A stretch of 37,702 nucleotides of DNA from the IMG/VR virus record IMGVR_UViG_3300044637_000032, positions 1 through 37,702 of that record. One strand, 5' to 3'. A model generated the notes under the pieces. It saw only the letters and a list, made by a program, of their open reading frames with translations, was not told the DNA's origin and ran no database searches. Below, piece by piece: positions 9,388-37,702 of the stretch. Position 1 is the first letter of the stretch. Every line of letters begins with the position of its first letter. Made by a program: the position numbers and the translations under genes. Source of the DNA: a virus.

Positions 9388-10548
9388 TTAGAATCTCCGG
9401 GGTTGTGTGAACGATCTTAATGCAATAGGAAACTCAGCCGTTGAATACGGGGGTGACAAGCTAAAGTTCCATCCGTCATTATTACCGGCATCTGTGTTTT
9501 CAAAGTCAGTGTAAGCGTTCCAAGAAGCCCCGCCAACAGCGTTGATGTCACGAATAGTTAAGTCAACTACGTTAACTGTACCTGATGCTTGTGATAGTGT
9601 AGCTTGCGATCCGGGCGTTGTAGACTGTAAAAACTTGACGTTGGCGTTATTAGCCACAAAGCTACCAACTGTGCTGGTCACACCCGCTTTGAGTTGGACA
9701 GTACCATTGGTGATAGTGAACGCTCTTGTTGAGCCTTGAGTGAGCGCGTCTTGAAAAGCAAACGTGCCTCCGACACCATCAAAAGAAAAAGGCGTATCAA
9801 CTGTGATTCCGTTTGTCGTGATTTGTTGGACACCGGATGTCCCAGCCAGTCGAAAATTACCGGTTGAGCTAATGGTCATTCCAGAATCAAAAGTCAAATT
9901 ACCGTAAATAAACCTACCAACAGCAGCCGTAGCCGCGCCTTTGTACCCGGTGTAATTCAGATTAAGGAAGTGCCCGCCAACATCAACAATATCGGTTCCT
10001 GCTGTGATGTTTACTGTTACGGCTGTAGCTGACGAGCCGCCAGCAGTATTGCCAGCACGTATTATTCGAGTTCCTACCGAGCCAGAATAAGTGCAATTGA
10101 ATGTTGGCGTTCCAGAATACACAAACCCAGTTATTGTATTCATACCTAATACGCCAGCAAAACTATTACCGGTTACTGTGATATCACCAGTGCCAAAATT
10201 TATGGTTCGGACGTTTGTGTTACTTGACGCAAATCGACCAACAGTAAGAGTATTGTTGTTAAGTGTTAATGTGCCTGATGTAAGCGTAAAGTTGTTTGAC
10301 TGAACAGCGAGTGTTGCGTTGCCACTTAGGCTTAATGTTATGTCAGACTTGTCAACAGTTGTAGCGCCAGTGGCCGCTGTTGAAGCAACGGTAACTGTAG
10401 CCGCCGTGCCAGAGTTAGCGTCAAAAAACACTACATCTGCGGTTGTGGGCGCAGAAACACCGCCAGCGCCGCCCGATGTAGCCGCCCAGTTGGTAGTGGA
10501 ACTTGCGTCCCAGGTTCCAGAGCCACCCACCCAAAATCTGTTTGCCAT
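9388..10548 (-). CDS. Beta-repeat surface/appendage protein
   Basis: The 386-residue protein begins MANRFWVGGSGTWDASSTTN and contains GGAGGVSAPTTADVVFFDAN, followed by many short Thr/Asn-rich strands (LTLNNNTLTV, TISSTGNFRLAG) that look like a right-handed beta-helix or repeat solenoid. This N-terminal block is common in phage surface proteins. It follows the two tailspike-type genes with an AAGGAA Shine-Dalgarno, so I infer a host-interaction or appendage role. No lyase or hydrolase motif is visible. Confidence 0.6.
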   Translation of the reverse strand: MANRFWVGGSGTWDASSTTNWAATSGGAGGVSAPTTADVVFFDANSGTAATVTVASTAATGATTVDKSDITLSLSGNATLAVQSNNFTLTSGTLTLNNNTLTVGRFASSNTNVRTINFGTGDITVTGNSFAGVLGMNTITGFVYSGTPTFNCTYSGSVGTRIIRAGNTAGGSSATAVTVNITAGTDIVDVGGHFLNLNYTGYKGAATAAVGRFIYGNLTFDSGMTISSTGNFRLAGTSGVQQITTNGITVDTPFSFDGVGGTFAFQDALTQGSTRAFTITNGTVQLKAGVTSTVGSFVANNANVKFLQSTTPGSQATLSQASGTVNVVDLTIRDINAVGGASWNAYTDFENTDAGNNDGWNFSLSPPYSTAEFPIALRSFTQPRRF

Positions 10549-14025: not shown

Positions 14026-14388
14026 TTATGCGAGGAATTTTAACTTGTACAGGGTGGACAGGTAAAGCCCAACAATTTCATCAATGATGTTTTGAATCGG
14101 GGTGTCGTTCTTGTCGCACACCTCATAGCGCATACCCTCGATGTCTTTGAGGGACTGCTCCAAAAACTCGATGATGTTGCCGTTCTTCTTGGCGCTCATC
14201 AGGCTGATGGGTCCAATTAGACCACGACGACCTTGGTAAGCCTCGGCAAACTTGTCGGCCAACTCAATCACATTTTCGTAAAAGTGCCGCAGCGCCTTGT
14301 GTTTGGAGTAGGACCGGGTGTTCAGGTGAACCGAATGGGCCACGTCACGAGCCAAGAACAACTCGCCTACAAAATCAGCGCATTTCAT
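14026..14388 (-). CDS. Helical conserved phage protein (DUF5856-like)
   Basis: The 120-residue protein begins MKCADFVGELFLARDVAHSV and contains HKALRHFYENVIELADKFAEAYQG. I recognise this helical pattern from a phage family that resembles a ferritin/Dps-like four-helix bundle (DUF5856, from memory). It overlaps the portal stop by 14 nt, so it is coupled to portal. A role in head maturation or in the host cannot be told from the sequence. Confidence 0.65.
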   Translation of the reverse strand: MKCADFVGELFLARDVAHSVHLNTRSYSKHKALRHFYENVIELADKFAEAYQGRRGLIGPISLMSAKKNGNIIEFLEQSLKDIEGMRYEVCDKNDTPIQNIIDEIVGLYLSTLYKLKFLA

Positions 14389-16573
14389 TCATGTCTCCTT
14401 GGAACGGCATCATCTCGGGCTGCATTTCAGGCTGCATCTCGGGCATCTCGCGCTGCTGGTTCATCATAACCATATTGTCGTTGGATTCCATCGCAGCAGC
14501 CACAACGCCCATAGCAATATCTTGGATCTGTTGCTCACTCATGCCAGCTTGAACAGCGGAAATGCGCTGTGTTTCGGCCTGATATGCCTTGATGTCAGCC
14601 TCAAACTGCTTGATCTGCATCTCACGGGCTTCCATGCTCTGGTTGACGTTTTGCAACATCTGGAACATGTTTTCCATCTCAGCAGCCATTGCCTCCATCT
14701 GCTGATTGGCTGCTGCCAAGGCTGGATCGTCATCATCGGCCAGCACTTTGGGGTCGATGGTCTTTTTGAACCGCTTGGCGAGGTCTTGAGCACCAGGCCA
14801 GTCCATGTTCTTGACAAACAGGTCGCCAGCGACTTGCCACAACTGTGGGTTGCCTTGCAGCAACTGGGCCATGCTTTCCAAAGCCTCTTGACGCTTGGTA
14901 GCGTAGCCGGGACCAGTGATCACGCGCACATCGTACTTGCCAACAGCCGGGTTGTAGATCTTCTCGATCAAGTTACCTTCTTGGTCCACGATGCGCTTGA
15001 CTGGTTCTTCCTGCATCGGGTTCATCTTGACGGTATCTGGCTCGCCGTCCTCACCGATGATGCGGGCAATGCGCTCGGTGTCGTAAATCTTGGGGATCAG
15101 GTCCACGAGTTGACGACCAATGTGACGGATCGCACGGGCCAGGTTGTCAACGTAGTGGTAGGTGCCGATGTCGCCCTCACGCTGACGCGCAAGGATGGCT
15201 TTGCCCGAACGCTCGTTGCTGGTCATGCCCAGCGAGGCGTTGTACTGGCCGGTGGCCGACTTGATGTCTTCAGCAGCGCCCGCCTTGGCCTGCAACAGGC
15301 CGCTGGAGGCCATTGGAGGTTGTGCCCGCTGGGGTAGTGGCAACACAGCGCCTTGGCCGTCTGTAACGTCTGGATTGACCTCCAGATAGGGCCAGTTGTT
15401 CGTGTTGGCAGTCTTCCACTGCTGCTCGTAGCCTTCAAACTGACCGCCGTACCCGATAAACGGGGCTTTGGGGGCCAGCGCCAGCATCTCAGCTTCCTGC
15501 GACACCCAGTAGTTGTACATGCGCTGGGCGTCCTTGGCGTTGCGCACCAAGCCCGACACGTACATTTGGCCGTCAACCTCAAACTCGTTGCCGACCACGC
15601 GCACCACGGGGATGTATGTGCCAGCCCACTCGCGTTCTTCGAGGATGTCGTAGCCGTTGATCTTGCACCACTTGACCTTTTTGCGGTCAGCTTCACGGGT
15701 GCGGATTGGCTTGCCGAACATCAAGCGCAGCGTCTTGTCCTCGGGCGAACCGCTAAACGCAGTCTGGTTGCCGGGGTACAGGTTGAGCGTTTGTTTCTCG
15801 TACTCGATGTAGAAATACTCGGCGATGCGGACAGTGTTCTCACCAATCCACTGAGCGATGGACTGATCGCCAACGCCAAGGCTCATCAAGGTGCTGATGG
15901 GCGCTGCATCGGGATACATGCGCTCGTATTCAGCTTTGGTCAGGTCTTCCGTGACAAAGCACCAACGGGCGTCTGCGCCCGTGGGGTCTTGGATCATGGG
16001 GTCCATGTAGACGCTGAAACTGTTGCGGATGCGCCCAATCTTGATGTCCTGATCGAACGTGTCTTCGTCGCAATACTCGGTCAGCAGCCGGATGTAGCCT
16101 TCGCCGTAGGACACTTGGTTCTCGCAGGCGGTGTCGTAGGCCACATCAGCATCGGAGATGTATTCGATATGGCGTATGACACCATTGAACACATCTGCCA
16201 TGTCCACATCGGCCTTGTCGTCAGCCGGGATCACCTTGATGCCGGGACGGTTCATACGCTGCTCGTTCGTCACTTGGTGAACGTGCTGCGGCAGCTTGTT
16301 GATGGTCAGGCAGGGGCGGGCGTTGATCGTTTGACCCTGCACCGCGCCACGAGTCTGGAGCACGTCAGCAGGCCACTGCCACTGGTTGTCTGGGGAGCCT
16401 GCGTAGAACCGCAAATCGTCAAGTTCGTCTTCCCGAGTCTGGGAAAACGCCGCCATTGCCATCTTCATGCGTGAACGGGCAACGGTCAGAATTTCCTCGG
16501 AACCGCCTTTTGACGGGTACGGTCCGTTTTTTGCCACATTTGCTGCGGCTACGATTCCGGTGGTGTCTTTCAT
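14375..16573 (-). CDS. Portal protein, P22 gp1-like
   Basis: The 732-residue protein matches the P22 portal family in size (P22 gp1 is 725 residues) and pattern. It has an N-terminal helical region with LDDLRFYAGSPDNQW, then RPCLTINKLPQHVHQVTNEQ, and a C-terminal coiled stretch very rich in Gln/Met/Glu (residues about 620-730) that corresponds to the barrel/crown helices. Twelve copies form the DNA-entry vertex that terminase docks on. It overlaps the GroES-like stop by 4 nt (16570-16573). Very long open frames on the plus strand inside this gene are shadows. Confidence 0.9.
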   Translation of the reverse strand: MKDTTGIVAAANVAKNGPYPSKGGSEEILTVARSRMKMAMAAFSQTREDELDDLRFYAGSPDNQWQWPADVLQTRGAVQGQTINARPCLTINKLPQHVHQVTNEQRMNRPGIKVIPADDKADVDMADVFNGVIRHIEYISDADVAYDTACENQVSYGEGYIRLLTEYCDEDTFDQDIKIGRIRNSFSVYMDPMIQDPTGADARWCFVTEDLTKAEYERMYPDAAPISTLMSLGVGDQSIAQWIGENTVRIAEYFYIEYEKQTLNLYPGNQTAFSGSPEDKTLRLMFGKPIRTREADRKKVKWCKINGYDILEEREWAGTYIPVVRVVGNEFEVDGQMYVSGLVRNAKDAQRMYNYWVSQEAEMLALAPKAPFIGYGGQFEGYEQQWKTANTNNWPYLEVNPDVTDGQGAVLPLPQRAQPPMASSGLLQAKAGAAEDIKSATGQYNASLGMTSNERSGKAILARQREGDIGTYHYVDNLARAIRHIGRQLVDLIPKIYDTERIARIIGEDGEPDTVKMNPMQEEPVKRIVDQEGNLIEKIYNPAVGKYDVRVITGPGYATKRQEALESMAQLLQGNPQLWQVAGDLFVKNMDWPGAQDLAKRFKKTIDPKVLADDDDPALAAANQQMEAMAAEMENMFQMLQNVNQSMEAREMQIKQFEADIKAYQAETQRISAVQAGMSEQQIQDIAMGVVAAAMESNDNMVMMNQQREMPEMQPEMQPEMMPFQGDMNEMR

Positions 16574-16985: not shown

Positions 16986-17152
16986 CACTTGGCCTTTTTA
17001 GCAGGTTTGGCAGTCTTGGCCGACTCTTTGAAGTCTTTGGCCGAGGGTGCGCCAGCAGCGCCGGGTTTGCGCATCTTTTCGCCGCTACCTGCGGCAATAC
17101 GGGCGCGTTTGGCGTTGATGTTACTGTAAAGACCGGGTTTTGTAGCCATCAT
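16985..17152 (-). CDS. Small basic conserved phage protein (about 55 aa)
   Basis: Two adjacent ATG codons (17152, 17149) follow in an ATGA overlap with the terminase stop. The product reads MATKPGLYSNINAKRARIAA, then GSGEKMRKPGAAGAPSAKDF and a Lys/Ala-rich tail. This N-terminus is a very recurrent small phage protein beside terminase/portal genes. It is strongly basic, with no cysteines and no known function. Its TGA shares bases with the start of the next small gene. Confidence 0.72.
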   Translation of the reverse strand: MMATKPGLYSNINAKRARIAAGSGEKMRKPGAAGAPSAKDFKESAKTAKPAKKAK

Positions 17153-18675
17153 GACCCCATCCAAGAAGTAAGGGCAGCACCGTTTTGAGCGTTGCGCCTA
17201 GTGAGTGGTTGCTCAGTGTACTCTCTATGAGCCACAGGAAACGCAAAAGTCACACAAATAGCATCTGCCGCATCAGGCGATGCAAGGCCTCTTGCTTTCA
17301 TGTCCTTCTTGCTCTCCAAGAAAATTGTACCCCTAGAATCTGGCTTGATCATAGGCGAAACCAAATCAGTCTTCAAGAACCTGTCTTTGGGAATACTGGC
17401 AGATCTCAGCCAGTCCTTCATCTTGCCCCACATCTCAGCACGCTTATTGCCATACATGATGGGGTTCGCACTCTTGTTGCCAAAGTTGACACCCTTGATC
17501 TTGTAGCGTTGCTCTTTCAGCCGGTCAACAATGCCAGCGCCAAGACCTCCCTCGTCGATGACAACTAGGGCAGGCTTGAACTCCTCGATGGCCTCAATGA
17601 TGTGGCCCACCACCGTCATGGTGTCATCCCCACGGTGGCGGTCAATGCGAACAATATCCCTGCCTTGCCTCACAGCAATCACCGTGGCATCAGCGCCAAA
17701 GCGTGCTGGGTCAACCCCCACAATGATGGGCGCTGTCTGGTCCTTGTACTTGGCCCTGCTCATCGCCTCATCCACAATGTTTGACGGAATAAACTGGTCA
17801 TCGCCAGCATTGGGAAACTGCCCGTAAACCTCAACGTGAGCCTGGCTTGAGTCAGGGCCGTACTCATCAATGATGTTCTGGTACACAGCCTTGTCCGTGC
17901 CTTCCACCGTCCTGGCGTCCACCACCTTGGTGTTCCAGAAGTCTCGCTTTGAGTGAAAAGTCTCGTAGAAGTACCCCGTGTTTCGCCGTGGGTTAGAAAA
18001 CGCCAGCCAAAGTCGGTTGGGAGTGTTCTCGGTAAAGAAACCAGCCGTCACAGCCCAGATGCTGTCCTCGATACCGGACGCCTCATCAAAGATCACCATC
18101 ACACCATCAAAGTTGTGAACTCCAGCATAAGCATCTGGGTTCTCGGCTGACCACAGCCGGCCCTCAACAGCCCAGTAGCGTGTGCCTTTTTTCAGATCCT
18201 TTTCCACCAGATCAGTGAGCCAGTTGGCAGGCGTGATCTTTGTCGCTGCAACCTCAAACCAGTGGCTGTTAATACTCATCGCCAACCACTTGGTGATCTC
18301 GGCCCATGTGACCGCACGAAGCTGAGACTCTGAGTTGGCCGAGATGATGGTGGTCGAGCCAATCCTGGTGGACAGCATCCAGATGGTCAACCAAGACACC
18401 AGTGCAGACTTGCCAATCCCTCGGCCAGAAGACACAGCATGACGCAGTGTCTCAAAGTCTATGCGGCCCTGCTGGCGCTTGATGTGCTCGGTGATCTCAC
18501 GCAGCACCTCGCGTTGCCACTTGCGTGGACCCTTGAAGTTCGCCAGTGGCGTGTTCTCCTGGCCCCAAGGAAAAGCAAACAAGACAAAAGCCTCAGGGTC
18601 GTCGGCAATCGCCGGTGTCCACAGCGTTGCCATCAACTCTTGTTCGTCTTCGGGCTTGTAGATGGTGGTTTGCAT
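17149..18675 (-). CDS. terL: Terminase large subunit
   Basis: The 508-residue protein shows both motor and nuclease parts. Walker A is GRGIGKS (residues 84-90), Walker B VMVIFDEAS (192-200), and a coupling-type SNP motif lies near 228. The RNase H-like nuclease has VGVDPARFGADATVIAVRQG starting at 319 with D322, VVIDEGGLG with D374/E375, and a late Asp in SPDAADAICVTF. It packages DNA into the prohead through the portal. The gene starts directly after the stop of the ADP-ribosyltransferase-like gene and is followed by ATGA-coupled small genes. The similarity of the whole set to P22/Sf6 suggests headful packaging. Confidence 0.95.
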   Translation of the reverse strand: MQTTIYKPEDEQELMATLWTPAIADDPEAFVLFAFPWGQENTPLANFKGPRKWQREVLREITEHIKRQQGRIDFETLRHAVSSGRGIGKSALVSWLTIWMLSTRIGSTTIISANSESQLRAVTWAEITKWLAMSINSHWFEVAATKITPANWLTDLVEKDLKKGTRYWAVEGRLWSAENPDAYAGVHNFDGVMVIFDEASGIEDSIWAVTAGFFTENTPNRLWLAFSNPRRNTGYFYETFHSKRDFWNTKVVDARTVEGTDKAVYQNIIDEYGPDSSQAHVEVYGQFPNAGDDQFIPSNIVDEAMSRAKYKDQTAPIIVGVDPARFGADATVIAVRQGRDIVRIDRHRGDDTMTVVGHIIEAIEEFKPALVVIDEGGLGAGIVDRLKEQRYKIKGVNFGNKSANPIMYGNKRAEMWGKMKDWLRSASIPKDRFLKTDLVSPMIKPDSRGTIFLESKKDMKARGLASPDAADAICVTFAFPVAHREYTEQPLTRRNAQNGAALTSWMGS

Positions 18676-19992
18676 TTATTTGTTCTGGCGACCTTGACGC
18701 ATAAATTTACGCATCTCGTTTTGTGTGTATGCGTCTTGCTGGGCTTGTTCTGCGGCCAAAAGATCCGGCGCGGCAACACCCATTGTTGCGGCAATTGCGG
18801 CAGTTCTGCGGAATGGGTCAAAGGCGGCAAATCGGGAGCGCAACTGGTCAGTGTCTGCCGTTACATCCCACAACCTGCCATTTCCTCTATCCAAAGTGTG
18901 ACCTGTGTATCCAAGAGACTGCACGTTGTCATAACCAGTGGCCCTTAACAAAGTATCGGCATCTTTGCCGCTGGTAATTGGCACCGGCGCATCAAAATTG
19001 GTAAATTCCACAGCAAAAGTGCCATCAGGGTTTGCCAATGCTTCTGGACGCGCTCTGTCATAACCACCGCCAAACTGATTCCAGTTTTCACGCTGGTTAG
19101 CAAAGAAGTCACGGGCATCTTGCACATCTTTAAATTCACGCCTTTCCCGACCAACAGTAAACCTTGCTTTATCAGACGGCAACATTGACTCACCAGCAAA
19201 CTTACTCAGCTTTTGCAAGTCATCAGCATTTGGCGCATCAATTTGTAAATGACCAGATCTGTTAATCCTTAATGGGAAAACAGCGCCACCAGCACCATAA
19301 GCACTGGCATCACCAGCAGCATCTGTTGTCGTATATACGCCAGTACCATAAGCGTCACCAGTCCGAATTGATCCAGATTCACCGCCAGCGACCAGTTTCT
19401 TAATGTTTTCAGGTGTTTTGCTTCCATGAAACACCTCATCAGGAAACATAATTGCCGCCCTTTGCTCTGCCGTATTGTTTGCAGGCAAACCCAGACCGCC
19501 TTGAGATGGTGGGAGCGCGGCACGCTGCTGCGCCAGCCGCAAGGCTTCCTCTTGCGGTGCTGCCACGCCAGGTCGCAAGAAATTCATCCCACCAACAGCT
19601 TGCGTAGACATACCAACTGGCAAACCCCTAGTCGCAAAAGCTGCTTGCCTTGCCGCCCTCGCTGCCTGCAAGGTCGCCATCGTGGCAGGTTGCGCCAGTG
19701 GTGCTACGGCCATTGCCGCCTCAATAGCCTCTGGCCTAATCTGGGTGGTCATCCCTCTACCAGTTGTCAGTGGCTCGCCATAGGACAAGCGATCCAATGT
19801 CTGACTCACCGCTGGCAGTGACAAGAACTGCGCCATGCCCTGCATCTGCTGCGTGCGCTGCGGTGCGTAAGACGCAGCCGCCAAATCAGCCAAGTACCCA
19901 AGCACCTGGTTGCGTGGGGTCGCACTCAACGTGTCTTGGTACGCCAGCATGTTTGCTGGACGCTGGGCGAGGGCGTTTTGGTAAATCGGCAT
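18676..19992 (-). CDS. ADP-ribosyltransferase-like (ART-PolyVal type) putative virion protein
   Basis: The 438-residue protein has an Ala/Gln-rich N-terminal half (MPIYQNALAQRPANMLAY). A C-terminal domain from about residue 185 looks like an ADP-ribosyltransferase fold: VFHGSK (188-192) for the first-strand His, GDAYGTGVYTTTDAAGDAS (212-230) with AYG after it for the Tyr-containing motif, and GYDNVQSLGY (353-362) plus a final FAAFDP strand. The third catalytic acidic residue is not obvious. Such domains occur in phage polyvalent or injected proteins that modify host targets. No Shine-Dalgarno precedes the ATG at 19992, and the gene sits between terS and terL, which is unusual. Confidence 0.6.
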   Translation of the reverse strand: MPIYQNALAQRPANMLAYQDTLSATPRNQVLGYLADLAAASYAPQRTQQMQGMAQFLSLPAVSQTLDRLSYGEPLTTGRGMTTQIRPEAIEAAMAVAPLAQPATMATLQAARAARQAAFATRGLPVGMSTQAVGGMNFLRPGVAAPQEEALRLAQQRAALPPSQGGLGLPANNTAEQRAAIMFPDEVFHGSKTPENIKKLVAGGESGSIRTGDAYGTGVYTTTDAAGDASAYGAGGAVFPLRINRSGHLQIDAPNADDLQKLSKFAGESMLPSDKARFTVGRERREFKDVQDARDFFANQRENWNQFGGGYDRARPEALANPDGTFAVEFTNFDAPVPITSGKDADTLLRATGYDNVQSLGYTGHTLDRGNGRLWDVTADTDQLRSRFAAFDPFRRTAAIAATMGVAAPDLLAAEQAQQDAYTQNEMRKFMRQGRQNK

Positions 19993-20000
19993 GGGGCGAT

Positions 20001-20210
20001 GTTAATTGATTTTTTAAAAAACAAAAAATTAAAAATTGTGTGAGGGGCTACCGTCACCGTGACCTTCCGCCGCCGGCCCTACCCCCCCGCCCTCGCCGGC
20101 GGGACGGCCAGCCACGGGTTGTGCACAGGGTTTTGTCCACAGTTATCCACAGCGGCTTGTGAATAACTAGGAATGTAGGCAGTCGGTGCTAGTTTTTCTG
20201 TGGATAATTT
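20001..20210. other. Candidate DnaA-type replication origin in the terS-ART gap
   Basis: The 400-bp gap between the terS stop (20393) and the ART-like start (19992) holds three perfect DnaA boxes (TTATNCACA): 20143-20151 on plus, 20158-20166 and 20199-20207 on minus. One-mismatch boxes are TTGTCCACA at 20133-20141 and TTGTGCACA at 20119-20127. Next to them is an almost pure A/T stretch (about 20003-20038, with TTTTTTAAAAAA at 20010-20021) that could unwind. A GC-rich hairpin lies at 20086-20103. Boxes plus AT-rich DNA is the plan of bacterial and plasmid origins. A 105-codon open frame across it is probably not a gene. Confidence 0.6.
20086..20103. repeat. GC-rich inverted repeat in the origin candidate
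   Basis: CCCGCC and GGCGGG form a 6-bp all-GC stem with a 6-nt loop. It separates the AT-rich stretch from the DnaA boxes. It could be a structural part of the origin or a weak terminator for leftward transcription from terS; no T-tract is next to it. Confidence 0.45.
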
Positions 20211-20247
20211 GGCATCGACTTTACATAATGAACGTTGTAGGAAGTGA

Positions 20248-20283
20248 CTACGCTTTTGCGTCAGGGTTAACCCTAATGCGTAG
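20248..20283. repeat. Nested palindrome downstream of terS
   Basis: CTACGC (20248-20253) and GCGTAG (20278-20283) are inverted arms that enclose a perfect 12-bp palindrome AGGGTTAACCCT (20263-20274). This is a plausible dimeric-protein binding site, for example a pac-type or initiator site, next to terS and the DnaA boxes. Its function is not known. Confidence 0.4.
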
Positions 20284-20392
20284 CCGGTTGGGCGCGTGCG
20301 CGTAACGATACAAAATCTATGCGGAAAGCGCATAACCCTCCCATCAACAACATTTAATCCAGCCAAACCAGCAGCGATTACCTCACCAAATG

Positions 20393-20908
20393 TCACGAAT
20401 CAACAGCTTTGCTCTCGACATCCACTACGTTGCTTTCATCTTTAAGCACACGCTGCTTTGCTTCTTTGAGCGCATCCATGACGCTAATGCGGGTGTCGGT
20501 CACGGCAACGTCGATGCGATCGCCGTATCGTTTGGCGTACAGCTTTGACGCTACCCACTTGCGTGCGTCCACTTGCATACGCTTTTGCTGAACCCAAGCA
20601 GACGCCATTGGTCCTTCCAAGTGTGCTGGCATCTCTGCATCGGACAACTCGATGATCTCTTCAGCCAGTCGATCGGCACGGCTTTCGGTTGCTCGTTCGT
20701 ACATGGCGCGGAACTCTGCATTGTTCCGAATCATGAGCATGGCGCATTGGTAGCTGGGCATACCAGGCTGCTTGAGGGTGCTGGTGATGCTTTTGCCAGT
20801 TGAGATCTGTTTGCATATCTCAGCCCAGATTGGGTGCTCAATCGGATACAGCGTTGGCCTGCCTGGACGATTCTTCACTGTCATTTCTGACGCCAAGTTT
20901 TCAGTCAC
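20393..20908 (-). CDS. terS: Terminase small subunit (Sf6-like)
   Basis: The GTG at 20908 has an AGGAG Shine-Dalgarno at good spacing and overlaps the stop of a 29-residue frame, giving 171 residues; an ATG at 20884 is the alternative. The core NRPGRPTLYPIEHPIWAEIC plus ISTGKSITSTLKQPGMPSYQ is the DNA-binding helix-turn-helix region of Sf6-type small terminases. RADRLAEEIIELSD and the WVASKLYAKRYGD region form the oligomerisation helices. It recognises the packaging site and feeds DNA to TerL. Unusually, TerL lies 1.7 kb further on, behind the origin candidate and the ART-like gene. Confidence 0.85.
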   Translation of the reverse strand: MTENLASEMTVKNRPGRPTLYPIEHPIWAEICKQISTGKSITSTLKQPGMPSYQCAMLMIRNNAEFRAMYERATESRADRLAEEIIELSDAEMPAHLEGPMASAWVQQKRMQVDARKWVASKLYAKRYGDRIDVAVTDTRISVMDALKEAKQRVLKDESNVVDVESKAVDS

Positions 20909-21358: not shown

Positions 21359-21668
21359 GTACCGATACTTTGACCCGACTTTGTGTACCGAACCGAAGGG
21401 GGTATATATACCCCTTCGGTACGTTTCGGTACAACGGGCAAGTCGGGCATCGGTACGTTTCGGTACGTTTCGGTACATCGGTACATGGTTTCGGTACACT
21501 TGGACTGTACCGAACGAACCGAAATCGGTACAGATCGGTACGGTTCGGTACATTTCACCCTCAAAATAATTGCCGTTTCGGTACATCGGTACATCAATTC
21601 TGGCTGTTTCTGGCATGGTCATTGCTTAAATTGCCTCAGAATTTGGTGCCTTCGGTACGGTTCGGTAC
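21359..21668. repeat. Array of 17 WTCGGTAC repeats
   Basis: The octamer (T/A)TCGGTAC occurs 17 times in 310 bp: 14 in plus orientation (CGGTAC at 21417, 21427, 21451, 21461, 21471, 21479, 21492, 21526, 21536, 21546, 21579, 21587, 21653, 21663) and three in minus (GTACCG at 21359, 21385, 21507). Spacing is irregular, often 10 or about 8 bp, so several copies face the same side of the helix. Most copies lie between the primase-helicase stop and the RusA-like start; two lie inside the last codons of the primase. It is the only block of its kind in the window. Iterons of an origin or a cluster of protein-binding sites are the likeliest readings. Confidence 0.85.
21392..21420. repeat. Inverted repeat within the WTCGGTAC array
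   Basis: ACCGAAGGGG and CCCCTTCGGT are perfect 10-bp arms around a GTATATATA centre (GGTATATATACC is itself palindromic). The centre is AT only and could melt or extrude. No T-tract follows on either strand, so a terminator is unlikely. Confidence 0.6.
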
Positions 21669-23671
21669 ACGTCATTGCGCACGTTAACCATGTCCTTTTT
21701 GGTCAAACCCTCAACCGATTCCTTAAATCTTCTGGAGTTCAGCCCGTGGCTCTTGGCCGATTCCCGCCACTCATCGTAGTTCGCTGACACGGCCATACCG
21801 TCCAAGCCATCAGCCTGCTTCTTGACCTCGATAGCAACAAGGCAGTTCAATGCGATCAACTGGTTGCCCGGCAAGATCGTCCGCTTTTGCACGCTGCTGA
21901 CCAGCCCTGAGATGTCCACACTGGTGAGATATGCACCCTTGACCGCATTGCCGTGCTTGTCGAGGATGGGCAGATCCACTTGGGTGATCTGGAAGTTCTT
22001 GGCCGCTGGCATTTCTGCGTCCTTCATCTTCTTAGACTCGAACTGGATGGTTTTGGTTCCCGAGTCCAACTGGCACTTGTACTCTGCATCCAATGCGCCC
22101 TTCAGTGCTGTGCTACCCCGTGACCGGTCCTTGTCCATTGCGCCACTGTGGTGTACAACCAACACACAGCACTTGTAATCTTGGCGCAAGTAAGTGTCCA
22201 AGTGCTGGATGAAGCTGTTCATGTCCTGAGTGCTGTTCTCATCCCCGCCCATGTTCCGAGCCAAGGTGTCGATGACGATCATGGATGGCACATGGCCGCA
22301 CTCGGCCGACAAGGTTTTGATGGAGTCAGCCACCAGAGCAGCCTCTGTTGCGTCATACAGTTGCGCTGCCCTGTGGCTTTTAAACAACGGTGCGCCGTCA
22401 AGTGTGGTGCCATTGCCCAATTCCCAGCCCTTAAAGCGCCGAGCCAAACCATTGTGTCCCTCGCCAGCGATGTAGAACACTGCACCTTGCTGAACTTGGT
22501 GACCGTGCCAATCACGCCCGGTTGCCACGCAGCAGGCCAAGTCAATTGAGACAAAGGACTTTCCCCCGCCTGGGTCACCGAACACCTGCGCCAAGCTGTC
22601 AGCCTCGATGTAGTCATCGACCACCCACTTAATCTCGCTCAGTTGCAAGGAATCTGCTCTGGTGAACTCAAACGCCAGCTTGTCACGCACAGGCCCAGCC
22701 ACGCGCTCAATTTGTTCTTTCACGGCATCCAGTCCTTGCAGGCAGTGCAGGTCATTCCAGTCTGTTGGCTTGTTGTCCACCATGTCAGCATCCCCGAATG
22801 ATGGATACACAATCTCGCCAAACACCATCGCTGCCGCTGCTCGGCCCTTGGTCACTCCAGGGTTGCCCTCGGTGAACTGGTCATTGTCAGCGCCGATCAC
22901 AATCTTGGAGCCGGGGAACATCTCCTTGGCTGCTTTGGCTACCTTGGACAAGTTGCCACAATCAAACGCCACCATGACGGTGTACCCCGTAGCCTCATGA
23001 ATACTGGCGCAAGTGGCAAAACCCTCACCCACGAACACTATCTTGCGGTTACCCCGCAACTCAAAAAAACCACCCTCGATCTTGCCACCCTTCAAGAACC
23101 GCTTGTTGCCTTCTGCGTCAATGGTCTGGTAGGACAATATCTCCCCAGACTGATTGATCACTGGCACCACCAGACGGCCAGCCCTGTCAATCTTGATGCC
23201 ATGTGCCTGAATGTGTTTCCTCACCAGGTAGGGGTGGTCGTCACTTGCATCAGCATATGTGCCGACCTCATCCTCTGCACGCTCTGCTGCCACCGCTTGG
23301 CTGGCAAGTCTCTCAGCCTCTTTCTTGGCCTTCAGATCAGCCACCCACTTGTCATGTTCAAACCTCTCGGTAAAACTCATGGTTCTGCCAATGTCAGCCA
23401 CCCACTTAGCCTCAAAGGTTGGCTCTTTCCAGCAGCCGGCAATGCCCACTGGCACCTTGCCACTGGTGTGCAAGATGTACCACCCGTCAAGCGATCCCTT
23501 CTTGCTCGACACATGAGGCACCCGGTGGATCTCGCCGTCAGCGATGAGGTCTTTGATCAGCAGGCCACTAGCCTCACAGTGAGCGCGAAAAGCACCCTCA
23601 GGGTTGATCAGGTCTTGGCTCTCTGTTGCTGCTGCAAAGCCATTGGGGAAGATGGTTGATAAGTTAGTCAT
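21626..23671 (-). CDS. TOPRIM primase - RepA-like replicative helicase
   Basis: The ATG at 23671 shares its A with the methyltransferase TAA (TAATG), which I take as the start, giving 681 residues; upstream in-frame starts lie inside the methyltransferase. The N-terminal 150 residues are primase-like and a charged linker follows. A TOPRIM domain has IVFVGEGFATCASI (catalytic Glu about residue 216) and IVIGADNDQ (DxD about 262-264). A RecA/RepA-like ATPase has GDPGGGKSF (about 365-373) and MIVIDTLARN. It is thus a bifunctional primase-helicase for phage replication. The C-terminus carries VYRTVP encoded by two copies of the WTCGGTAC repeat. Confidence 0.88.
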   Translation of the reverse strand: MTNLSTIFPNGFAAATESQDLINPEGAFRAHCEASGLLIKDLIADGEIHRVPHVSSKKGSLDGWYILHTSGKVPVGIAGCWKEPTFEAKWVADIGRTMSFTERFEHDKWVADLKAKKEAERLASQAVAAERAEDEVGTYADASDDHPYLVRKHIQAHGIKIDRAGRLVVPVINQSGEILSYQTIDAEGNKRFLKGGKIEGGFFELRGNRKIVFVGEGFATCASIHEATGYTVMVAFDCGNLSKVAKAAKEMFPGSKIVIGADNDQFTEGNPGVTKGRAAAAMVFGEIVYPSFGDADMVDNKPTDWNDLHCLQGLDAVKEQIERVAGPVRDKLAFEFTRADSLQLSEIKWVVDDYIEADSLAQVFGDPGGGKSFVSIDLACCVATGRDWHGHQVQQGAVFYIAGEGHNGLARRFKGWELGNGTTLDGAPLFKSHRAAQLYDATEAALVADSIKTLSAECGHVPSMIVIDTLARNMGGDENSTQDMNSFIQHLDTYLRQDYKCCVLVVHHSGAMDKDRSRGSTALKGALDAEYKCQLDSGTKTIQFESKKMKDAEMPAAKNFQITQVDLPILDKHGNAVKGAYLTSVDISGLVSSVQKRTILPGNQLIALNCLVAIEVKKQADGLDGMAVSANYDEWRESAKSHGLNSRRFKESVEGLTKKDMVNVRNDVYRTVPKAPNSEAI

Positions 23672-24389
23672 TAAATTCTTTCGCTGAGTAATTTCCATGC
23701 TGTTGCTGCGCACAGTGGGACTTGTCCGTTCCCAATGGCCTTAAGTCTGTCCACCCTAGCGGCCACCCCATCATTGCCTCGTATGTAGTAGGGTTGGGGT
23801 AGATCGTTCCAGTCACCAGTCCACCAGTCAAATTCTGAAATTGTCTTTTTCTTGATTGGAAATTTGCTGTCCCCGTGGTCCCCTTGTAATCGCATCTTGT
23901 TGGAGTGGCCCACAATCCAAATTCTGTCTCTTCTGTGATTGGCTCCAACATCGGCTGCTCCCACAACAGTCCATTTACAGTCATACCCCATTTGGGCAAG
24001 GTCGCCAACGACTCTTGTTCCTCCTCGAGAAGTGAGCATTGGGGAGTTTTCCACAAAGACAAATTGTGGTTGTACTTCGCCAACCACCCTTGCCATGTGG
24101 GACCACATTCCTGATCGCTCTCCGTCCAAGCCATCTCCCTTGCCTTGTGCGCTGATATCTTGGCATGGAAACCCGCCCGAAACGACGTCAACAATTCCTC
24201 GCCACGGCTTTCCGTCAAAGGTTTGTACGTCATCCCAAATCGGGAAAGGCGGGAGAAGTCCGTCATTTTGTCGGGCGCACAGTACGCTTGCTGGATAGGG
24301 TTCCCATTCAACGGCGCAGACTGTTCGCCATCCGAGAAGTTTCCCGCCAAGTATTCCTCCACCAGCGCCTGCGAAAAGAGCCAACTCAT
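23664..24389 (-). CDS. Second frame fully overlapping the methyltransferase (MSWLFS-type protein)
   Basis: A 241-residue frame, +1 to the methyltransferase on the same strand, covers it almost end to end. It starts with ATG at 24389, 8 nt after a GGAGG, whereas the methyltransferase uses a GTG only 4 nt after the same GGAGG. The product begins MSWLFSQALVEEYLAGNFSD and ends near MGWPLGWTDLRPLGTDKS. I remember database phage proteins with the same beginning, a W-x-TPT-x-x-D-x-KG middle and the same GWP-x-GWTDL ending, so it resembles a catalogued family. It may be a true overprinted gene or a long-propagated misannotation of methyltransferase loci. Confidence 0.4.
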   Translation of the reverse strand: MSWLFSQALVEEYLAGNFSDGEQSAPLNGNPIQQAYCAPDKMTDFSRLSRFGMTYKPLTESRGEELLTSFRAGFHAKISAHKAREMAWTESDQECGPTWQGWLAKYNHNLSLWKTPQCSLLEEEQESLATLPKWGMTVNGLLWEQPMLEPITEETEFGLWATPTRCDYKGTTGTANFQSRKRQFQNLTGGLVTGTIYPNPTTYEAMMGWPLGWTDLRPLGTDKSHCAQQQHGNYSAKEFND

Positions 24390-24393
24390 TCAC
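23671..24393 (-). CDS. C5 cytosine DNA methyltransferase
   Basis: The 240-residue protein has the C5-methyltransferase motifs in order: I, LALFAGAGGGILG (residues 4-16); IV, VVSGGFPCQDIS with the catalytic Cys; VI, FVFVENSPML; VIII, NHRRDRIWIVG; and X, AIGNGQVPLCAATAW. The target-recognition region is short (about 40 residues), so the enzyme is compact. It starts with GTG, overlapping the regulator stop (GTGA), and ends in TAATG with the primase. No restriction partner is present, so it most likely protects phage DNA from host restriction or marks it. The +1 frame is also fully open. Confidence 0.88.
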   Translation of the reverse strand: MNELALFAGAGGGILGGKLLGWRTVCAVEWEPYPASVLCARQNDGLLPPFPIWDDVQTFDGKPWRGIVDVVSGGFPCQDISAQGKGDGLDGERSGMWSHMARVVGEVQPQFVFVENSPMLTSRGGTRVVGDLAQMGYDCKWTVVGAADVGANHRRDRIWIVGHSNKMRLQGDHGDSKFPIKKKTISEFDWWTGDWNDLPQPYYIRGNDGVAARVDRLKAIGNGQVPLCAATAWKLLSERI

Positions 24394-24605
24394 GTTGCCT
24401 CCACCAGTTCAGGCCAGATGGACTGCCAACTGCCTTGGCACACCATCTTGCGCCCTAACCGGCCACCGGTCTCTTGCTCTACTCTCACAGCCTCAGAGGC
24501 TGACATCTCTCTGCGCCCAGTCAGGCACTGGTAGAGATACTGTTCATTGATGCCAACTTTTTCTGCCAGTTGTCGGCGCTCGTCTGGTGTGATTTGTGTG
24601 TTCAT
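24390..24605 (-). CDS. Cro/YdaS-like HTH regulator
   Basis: The 71-residue protein is a compact helix-turn-helix regulator: LTPDERRQLAEKV-like first helices, GINEQYLYQCLTGRREMSAS as the turn and recognition helix, EAVRVEQETGGRL, and a W-x-SIWPELVE end. This is the YdaS/Cro-like pattern of small phage repressors. It is the first gene of the leftward block and faces the rightward promoter, so it likely controls both. No Shine-Dalgarno precedes the ATG and the nearest promoter-like element is only about 10 nt upstream, so the message may be leaderless. Confidence 0.82.
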   Translation of the reverse strand: MNTQITPDERRQLAEKVGINEQYLYQCLTGRREMSASEAVRVEQETGGRLGRKMVCQGSWQSIWPELVEAT

Positions 24606-27145: not shown

Positions 27146-28228
27146 ATGGCCGCACTTCCACAATCTGTTGTGGACCCTGTGGCCGATGCCATCTTTGCCA
27201 GTTACAAGGCAAAGTATGGTGTTGAGTCACAGCGCCCCTATCTTGGTGCTAGTGCGATTGGCAAGCCCTGCTTGCGTCAGCACTGGTACAGTTTTCGGTG
27301 GTCAAAGCCTGCCGAGTTCTCTGGCCGCTTGTATCGAGTGTTCCAGACGGGTCACCTGCAAGAGCCGCGCATCTACGCTGACCTGGCTGCGATTGGCTGC
27401 ACCGTGTATGACATGGACCCAGCGACCGGCAAGCAGTGGTCGTTCACAGAGCCAACTAGTGGCAACCATTTCAAAGGCAACGCTGATGGCATTGTGACTG
27501 GTTTGCCGCAAGCGCCGAAGTCTCCGCATGTGCTGGAGATCAAGACGGCATCAGACAAGATGTTTAAGGACATGCAAAAGTCTGGAGTCAAGAAGGCCAA
27601 GCCCGAACACTACGCGCAGATGCAGATGTACATGAAATGGAGCATTGACTTGTACGGTGAGGATGGCTGCACCCGCGCCATCTACATTGTGGTCAACAAG
27701 AACGATGATGACATCTATACCGAGCGCCTGGAGTACGACAAGAACGAAACGCAAGCCATCATTGACAAAGCCTTGGCGGTGATTACGGCCACCGAGCCGC
27801 CGGTGGGGATCAGCCAAGACCCGTCTTGGTACGAGTGCAAGTTCTGCGATTACCACAGCATCTGCCACGGTACTGATGTGCCTGCGCCCACCTGCCGGTC
27901 ATGCGCCCACGCTACGCCCGAGATGGATGGCGATGCACGCTGGTCTTGTGCCGAGCACAGAGCCGATTTGCCTGTTGACATTCAGCGCACTGGCTGTGAC
28001 TTGCATCGGTACATCCCGATCTTGCTGTCTAAGAGCGCCACGCCAGTGGACATGGTGGACGGTGGTGTGGTGTATGAGATGGATGGTAAAAGGTTTGTCA
28101 ACGGCACGCCAGCCAACCATCCAACGCACATCAGCAGCGCCGAGATTCACGCTTGCAATGACAAGACAGCGTTAATTGATGAGTTTGCACTGGATCTAAG
28201 ACTTCAACATGGAGGTCAATTTGTATGA
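27146..28228 (+). CDS. Cas4-like PD-(D/E)XK nuclease with Cys-rich C-terminus
   Basis: The 360-residue protein has the PD-(D/E)XK core: QTGHLQEPRIYADL (H70, E73), GNADGIV (D114), LEIKTA (E131, K133) and QMQMY (Q158, Y162). One Cys before the core (C42) and CKFCDYHSIC after it suggest a Cas4/AddB-type iron-sulphur staple. A further CRSC...C...C domain follows (residues about 253-295). It is probably the 5'-3' exonuclease that feeds the Sak4/SSB recombination module. It overlaps the next small gene in an ATGA. Confidence 0.82.
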   Translation: MAALPQSVVDPVADAIFASYKAKYGVESQRPYLGASAIGKPCLRQHWYSFRWSKPAEFSGRLYRVFQTGHLQEPRIYADLAAIGCTVYDMDPATGKQWSFTEPTSGNHFKGNADGIVTGLPQAPKSPHVLEIKTASDKMFKDMQKSGVKKAKPEHYAQMQMYMKWSIDLYGEDGCTRAIYIVVNKNDDDIYTERLEYDKNETQAIIDKALAVITATEPPVGISQDPSWYECKFCDYHSICHGTDVPAPTCRSCAHATPEMDGDARWSCAEHRADLPVDIQRTGCDLHRYIPILLSKSATPVDMVDGGVVYEMDGKRFVNGTPANHPTHISSAEIHACNDKTALIDEFALDLRLQHGGQFV

Positions 28229-36572: not shown

Positions 36573-37702
36573 TTAAAGTCCTGGTAAGCCCAACGGATTG
36601 TTTGCACTTGCACCGGGTATGCCACTTGTACCGACAGCACCGCCCATTTGCCTTGCACCCGGTCCAGCTTGAATTTCCATTGCCTTGATGGCAGTTCTAC
36701 GCGCTTGTTGCTTTTGCGCAATCGTGGCAGCGTCATCACCAGGCTTAGGAAAGTAATTTTTCTCGGCAGTTGCAAATTCATTTGCACCAATTGCAGCGCC
36801 AGATTCTTTTCGCAAAATGGCCGTAATAAAGTTGATCCTTGCTTGAGCCACTTGTTGTTGCTCTGGGCTAAGACCACCCAAAATCCGAGGCAATGCGTTA
36901 AAGACGGAACCAGACGCATCTTCAAGTTTTTCACCAAGAAGTGGTGTAAGCCCAACAACCCCGCCAACAACATTCTTGATCAAGCCGGTATTTGTTTTTC
37001 CGGCGTTTTCCAATGGCTCCAAAATTGCATTGGCCTCTCTCATTCTCAGGCCGTAAGCCGTAGCGTTGCCTTGAGATTCTGTCAGCGCAGTGCCTTTGCC
37101 ACGCAATGGTGTACCAGCCGCAGAAGCAACAGCCGCTGGCTGATCCAACACACTGGTCATGCCGGGGATGGCTTGTGTTGCTGGCGATGGCATACGTGGC
37201 CCAGGCATACCCGCACCAGGGGCCGCTGGAGCAGCCGCAGGCGTAGCGCCACCAATTGAAACAGGGAAAGCCTGCAAGGTGCGCTTGTTGACGCCAACAA
37301 TTGAACCGTCTTCAGCTTCTTTCAATTCAAAGCCAGGATTGGCCTTCTCAAACGCAAATTTTTGCTGCGCCAAATTAAGTTGACCTTGCGACACACCCAA
37401 CTGCTTTTGCGCGGTGAGTTCACCAATAGTCGGTGTCTTAGTAATGGCCGCACCAGCAATAGGCTGACCGTAACCCGGCATCATTGGGTTGTCTTGAATA
37501 CTCAAAATCTGACCGCCTGCTTCTTGGCGTACAGTCTTGGGCAGCATCATTGGCAGCTTGTCTTTGGCGTCCAAGATGCCCATAATTTTTTCAACTCGAT
37601 ATTGTCGATATTGATCTGGGTTTAAATTTTGAACTCGTTGAATTTCTTTCGTAGCCGAACGCATGTCAAAGATGCCTTCTTTGACGCCTTTGGTTAATTC
37701 AG
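36573..37702 (-). CDS. Internal virion / DNA-ejection protein, C-terminal part (continues at 1-614)
   Basis: The frame is open through the window edge and joins 1-614 through the 181-bp overlap to make a 520-residue protein. A Met codon at 37664 is internal, not the start. The C-terminal part is Ala/Pro/Gly rich (PAAAPAAPGAGMPGP, about 370 residues shown), with a helical stretch (LSPEQQQVAQARINFITAIL) and an end of the ejection-protein type. Position before the 623-residue protein fits P22 gp20. At codon 'GAA/AAA' (base 128 versus 37649) the two window copies differ, giving Glu or Lys. Confidence 0.75.
   Translation of the reverse strand, partial: ELTKGVKEGIFDMRSATKEIQRVQNLNPDQYRQYRVEKIMGILDAKDKLPMMLPKTVRQEAGGQILSIQDNPMMPGYGQPIAGAAITKTPTIGELTAQKQLGVSQGQLNLAQQKFAFEKANPGFELKEAEDGSIVGVNKRTLQAFPVSIGGATPAAAPAAPGAGMPGPRMPSPATQAIPGMTSVLDQPAAVASAAGTPLRGKGTALTESQGNATAYGLRMREANAILEPLENAGKTNTGLIKNVVGGVVGLTPLLGEKLEDASGSVFNALPRILGGLSPEQQQVAQARINFITAILRKESGAAIGANEFATAEKNYFPKPGDDAATIAQKQQARRTAIKAMEIQAGPGARQMGGAVGTSGIPGASANNPLGLPGL
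37522..37702. repeat. Terminal 181-bp overlap, copy 2 (copy 1 is 1-181)
   Basis: This stretch equals positions 1-181 except for T at 37649 where copy 1 has C at 128. It lies inside one open reading frame, and closing the ends restores a continuous 520-codon frame. It is therefore best read as an assembly overlap of a circular or circularly permuted molecule, not as a genuine terminal repeat with its own signals. Confidence 0.85.

Follow-up and report, generated by a model that had tools for sequence, protein, structure and literature searches.

A conserved XerC/XerD-type recombination site with a DnaA-box array at fixed distance in uncultured freshwater tailed phages

Sites for the recombinases XerC and XerD are already known from chromosomes, plasmids and filamentous phages. 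In ColE1 cer and pSC101 psi, the plasmid sites that most resemble the one described here, two 11-bp arms for XerC and XerD enclose a short centre and are accompanied by an adjacent array for host proteins, ArgR or ArcA together with PepA; in both, the XerC side carries this array (PMC11724359). Acinetobacter plasmids are known carriers of pdif (PMC6449649), 28-bp Xer sites on mobile DNA that flank gene cassettes. The filamentous phages CTX-phi, VGJ-phi and TLC-phi (IMEX) recruit host XerCD through a dif-like site and integrate at dif. Phage P1 encodes its own recombinase, Cre, for its site loxP. DnaA boxes, in turn, form clusters near an A/T stretch in oriC and in DnaA-dependent plasmid origins.

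Here we analyse, through sequence comparison, a locus in the podovirus-like genome of a freshwater virus record (37.7 kb, referred to as the window, meaning the whole stretch of DNA under study), where a 28-bp XerC/XerD-type site abuts a cluster of DnaA boxes. The boxes had been pointed out in an earlier note, in which the Xer-type site did not figure. The genome carries a leftward P22/Sf6-type packaging block, with the terminase small subunit (TerS) at 20393-20908, the large subunit (TerL) at 17149-18675 and the portal protein at 14375-16573, and the module of Xer-type site and DnaA boxes sits where the replication genes of the phage meet its packaging genes. A primase-helicase is indeed encoded by the phage, at 21626-23713, as had been noted before, and no DNA polymerase was seen in the window among the families searched. 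A 71-aa helix-turn-helix protein (24390-24605) lies at divergent promoters, and no CI-type repressor was recognised in the window. The interval between terS and terL also holds a gene for a 438-aa protein (18676-19992), which matches neither PHROG nor Pfam families and is absent from many relatives, where terL comes directly after the module. The frame of a cytosine-C5 methyltransferase, containing FPCQDIS, is 23671-24393, and it overlaps another open frame at 23664-24389. Bases 1-181 match bases 37522-37702, though not perfectly (one or more differences), a pattern seen when a genome is circular or has terminal redundancy. The Xer-type site and its neighbour are as follows.

20393-20908, minus strand: gene for the terminase small subunit (PF20901, 1.7e-28; phrog_1482), directly upstream of the module
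20218-20245, minus strand: XerC/XerD-type recombination site of 28 bp, ACTTCCTACAA-CGTTCA-TTATGTAAAGT; top match to the dif matrix, conserved
20235-20245, minus strand: XerC arm, 11 bp, consensus ACTTnnTACAA; conserved, though outside the pattern of the first module search
20229-20234, minus strand: centre, CGTTCA (YRNYCA in the family consensus); of constant length (6 bp) and variable sequence, with CA as the last two bases
20218-20228, minus strand: XerD arm, 11 bp, consensus TTATGTWAAGT; varies hardly at all among terS-linked relatives

The evidence for the site comes from a matrix made of the 26 chromosomal dif sites of Carnoy and Roten (PMC2731167), which uses the arms only, omits the centre and contains no phage data. 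This matrix ranks 20218-20245 on the minus strand first in the window with 26.3 bits; the next independent site scores 7.8 bits, and the maxima of 12 shuffles do not exceed 14 bits. The same site is the top match in all eight near-complete relatives (20-32 bits), and psi, which we take to be the string printed in PMC8340030, scores 19.3 bits. We also retrieved 80 loci through TerS alone (68-99% identity; 79 testable), and in 79 of the 80 the best dif match of the whole locus was found no more than 450 bp after terS. The layout of 11-bp arm, 6-bp centre and 11-bp arm has a fixed spacing in relatives. When aligned, the consensus ACTTnnTACAA-YRNYCA-TTATGTWAAGT adjoins the box cluster and is conserved to a similar degree. 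Since the first module search was run with the XerD arm and box 1 fixed, its column statistics are partly biased and the conservation of those columns is partly built in; the sets collected through TerS or with the Xer core only are free of this bias, and in the unbiased terS-linked alignment the XerD arm is still conserved more than the XerC arm, with a variable centre. The 28-bp element is a XerC/XerD-type site, and as such would be expected to bind XerCD.

The window also contains a cluster of five DnaA boxes at 20119-20207, three of them perfect copies of TTATNCACA and two with one mismatch. Together with the A/T stretch and the surrounding gap of 400 bp (19993-20392), they had been correctly described in the earlier note.

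20199-20207, minus strand: DnaA box 1, TTATCCACA, perfect; at +39 of the Xer-type site
20158-20166, minus strand: DnaA box 2, TTATTCACA, perfect; at +80, the same place in 23 of the 36 dissimilar modules listed
20143-20151, plus strand: DnaA box 3, TTATCCACA, perfect, inverted; at +95, and at +94 or +95 in 27 of the 36 modules listed
20133-20141, plus strand: DnaA box 4, TTGTCCACA, one mismatch; at +105, the same place in 6 of the 36 modules listed
20119-20127, plus strand: DnaA box 5, TTGTGCACA, one mismatch; at +119, and at +117 to +119 in 28 of the 36 modules listed
20043-20117, no strand: GC-rich block with a G/C run, between the boxes and the A/T stretch; kept in relatives
20003-20038, no strand: A/T-rich stretch immediately before the next gene, which may act as promoter region or as unwinding element; occurring in relatives

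This cluster is beyond chance: the only three perfect TTATNCACA boxes of the whole window all fall inside it, and among 200 Markov shuffles a maximum of two perfect boxes per 100 bp was reached once and three were never seen. The view that the gap holds no convincing gene stands as well. A mechanical ORF of 105 codons (20079-20396, minus strand) spans the boxes and has no PHROG match, and the box region aligns with so many indels among relatives that it reads as non-coding. Other candidates for the region were rejected: it has no Rfam match that would indicate a structured RNA, a Sigma-70 promoter or terminator did not rise above chance, and the fold of the GC-rich block in the window was not significant (z -0.4), ruling against a stable hairpin. 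Two further elements lie on the terS side, namely a conserved inverted repeat, TTATGCGCTTTCCGCATAG (20317-20335), directly after terS in most relatives, and a palindrome, AGGGTTAACCCT (20263-20274), between terS and the Xer-type site, which is kept in close relatives.

A comparison with relatives, as the earlier note had proposed, showed the boxes to be conserved. The cluster is kept in 78 of the 79 testable terS-linked loci, at the same place after terS, and is also found in phages whose terminase is only about 30% identical. Given canonical boxes that are conserved in number, place and spacing, use of host DnaA, also part of that note, appears likely. Moreover, box 1 starts at exactly +39 of the Xer-type site in 78 of 79 terS-linked loci and, among the matches listed, in 35 of 36 dissimilar modules (at least 36, a lower bound like all module counts, differing by more than 20%). 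The spacer of about 9-10 bp between the Xer-type site and box 1 is itself variable in sequence, with columns of low information content. An adjacent array at a set distance is what characterises cer and psi. When the Xer core was the sole query and boxes played no part in the selection, a box stood at +39 in 99 of 108 distinct sites among the matches listed; it was missing there in nine, and some of these had no box nearby at all. Of the two parts it is thus the Xer core that varies less, with the array accompanying it, and since the core persists in a few lineages that have no DnaA box, the boxes are not always needed. In two records a second group of perfect DnaA boxes was observed about 1.2 kb from the module (locus L236 of record G012, 10286-10425; record G011, 27578-27729). 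In three loci (L109, L115 and L144), long G-run and C-run arms upstream of the Xer-type site might fold into a hairpin, and some of the changes between lineages compensate each other.

The arrangement of boxes and A/T stretch had been read as an oriC-type origin. If such an origin is combined with the Xer-type site, DnaA would open the A/T stretch, the phage primase-helicase would be loaded there, and the Xer-type site would resolve dimers formed nearby. The relatives provide a direct comparison of the distances involved. In 14 of 79 terS-linked loci the unit of Xer-type site and boxes is reversed in place; its internal spacing is kept (10, then 41, then 38 bp), but the A/T stretch keeps its place next to the following gene, now about 190 bp past the Xer-type site. 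The box nearest to the A/T stretch is then about 205 bp away, with the Xer-type site in between, as against about 85-95 bp in the arrangement of the window. Among phages whose TerL is 28-33% identical, the unit lies amid different neighbours and in different orientations. Taken together, the inversion and the varied neighbours are hard to reconcile with a fixed, oriC-like layout in which the A/T stretch serves as unwinding element for these boxes, whereas boxes in the service of the Xer-type site would readily account for them. An origin in the form stated earlier is thus not supported: in oriC the unwinding element would be expected in conserved geometry to the boxes, whereas here this geometry differs between orientations, and it is the Xer-type site to which the boxes are rigidly spaced. 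Furthermore, some lineages lack the boxes, and the cumulative GC skew of the window, which had been suggested as a check and which in phages is confounded by gene orientation, reaches its extremes near 12.8 and 37.6 kb rather than at 20.1 kb. Of the signs that the earlier note had set against an origin, a skew extreme in another place was seen, and loss of the boxes in relatives was not. Nevertheless, canonical boxes cluster nowhere else, the window has a primase-helicase with no polymerase seen in the families searched, and in most lineages the module has an A/T stretch and a GC-rich block close by. Because of this last point and the apparent lack of a polymerase of its own, we leave a DnaA-dependent origin beside the Xer-type site roughly a quarter of the weight, and regard it as unlikely. 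In part of the clade with inverted units (L024, L026, L071 and L077), the unit after terS has iteron-like, near-palindromic repeats (such as TAAGTAAGYRCTYACTAAC) to either side.

The position of the cluster, immediately ahead of the packaging and structural genes that are read leftward, would also suit boxes that titrate host DnaA or let DnaA regulate these late genes, with the Xer-type site as a separate element. This appears very improbable, since the spacing to the Xer-type site is fixed, promoters in the region are not above chance, and the unit inverts relative to the genes and has different neighbours in other lineages. In several lineages the element adjoins terS, so that it might instead belong to the start of packaging (pac or cos). 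However, contig ends fall near the module without a clear pile-up at one position, and a Xer-type core and DnaA boxes would be foreign to such sites: we know of no pac or cos site that has either. We therefore consider a role in packaging highly doubtful.

As for the life style of these phages, no tyrosine integrase, serine resolvase or ParA-type ATPase (AAA_31) was found in 17 near-complete records, in line with the previous remark that an integrase is missing. P1 brings its own recombinase; here none was found, and host XerCD would serve. The plasmid-like state suggested on the same grounds fared less evenly: the Xer-type site is of plasmid type, but there is neither a ParA-type protein in the 17 records nor a plasmid or genome record with the element that would speak for an episome, and it is by these two marks that the phages differ from phage-plasmids. 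The element was likewise absent from PLSDB plasmids and INPHARED phages, and cultured phages with the same replication block or a related terminase (DSL-LC05, MW202483, MW202898, PB15, CGphi29 and 1N2-2) do not carry the module. When the phage consensus site plus 5 bp was compared by BLAST with 72,556 plasmids, 125 records were matched, 113 of them from Acinetobacter; as the individual matches are weak (E-values of 0.07 and above), it is this concentration in Acinetobacter that counts. The pdif sites that form these top matches differ from the phage site in flanking gene cassettes, and they have not been reported there with DnaA boxes.

For phages known from metagenomes alone, the arms serve as a clue to the host. 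Rhodoferax ferrireducens dif, ACTTGATACGA-TGTATA-TTATGTTAAGT, has the same XerD arm as the phage consensus and a XerC arm, ACTTGATACGA, that resembles the one of the phages (PMC2731167), and the XerD arm of the window itself equals the Bordetella dif arm. The identity of the XerD arms with those of Rhodoferax and Bordetella points to a host in the Burkholderiales, most like Comamonadaceae. The Rhodoferax site differs from that of the phages, which lies in a phage and carries DnaA boxes, in having another centre: the phage centre ends in YCA, as against TGTATA in Rhodoferax dif (which may not be the dif of the host). Like the centre of psi, it is 6 bp long, and many phage sites end in TCCA as psi does. 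The centre discriminates between replicons (Carnoy and Roten, PMC2731167), and a centre mostly unlike that of Rhodoferax dif would disfavour exchange with the chromosome and fits recombination between phage sites. This bears on the idea that the element is an attachment site for lysogeny, through which host XerCD would integrate the phage at host dif, as in the IMEX CTX-phi and VGJ-phi. Such a role is suggested by a dif-like site in phages without an integrase, and in some of the phages the centre has, on its XerC side, the TGT of Rhodoferax dif. Against it stand the mostly dissimilar central hexamer and the lack of any integrated copy: the element was not found in 84,980 species genomes, searched with an exact pattern from which exchange of the centre could hide one junction, nor was a relative of the primase found in genome_contigs, in a search that reaches close relatives. 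Integration at dif thus appears improbable.

With slightly better than even confidence, we favour a plasmid-type Xer site at which DnaA would act as an architectural accessory factor, for multimer resolution or circularisation. In such a mechanism, suggested by the layout of the conserved sequences, each arm would be bound by its host recombinase, XerC or XerD, and host DnaA on the array would fold or hold the DNA in such a way that recombination occurs only between two phage sites and in the right topology, a role parallel to that of ArgR/PepA or ArcA/PepA at cer and psi. Monomeric circles would result, either from resolving dimers that arise in replication or from circularising injected, terminally redundant DNA. 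In phage P1, loxP does the circularising job, and the would-be use of the site, in both circularisation and dimer resolution, would resemble that of loxP/Cre. There is, however, a real difference from cer and psi that counts against this explanation: the known arrays lie on the XerC side, whereas here a tailed phage has DnaA boxes on the XerD side, in place of an array for ArgR or ArcA with PepA. No report of DnaA as a Xer accessory factor was found in the literature searched, which makes this step a new one.

It is tentatively, and with somewhat less than even confidence, that we extend this role to uncultured freshwater tailed phages forming a widespread group, in which DnaA as architectural accessory factor of the Xer complex may couple resolution or circularisation to the replication-initiation state of the host. 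Many tailed phages have a conserved Xer site and no integrase, which suggests that the machinery with which the host deals with chromosome dimers is borrowed by them. With its DnaA array kept at constant spacing from the XerD arm, the site would, in addition, join the replication initiator to site-specific recombination, a link that we did not find in the literature searched.
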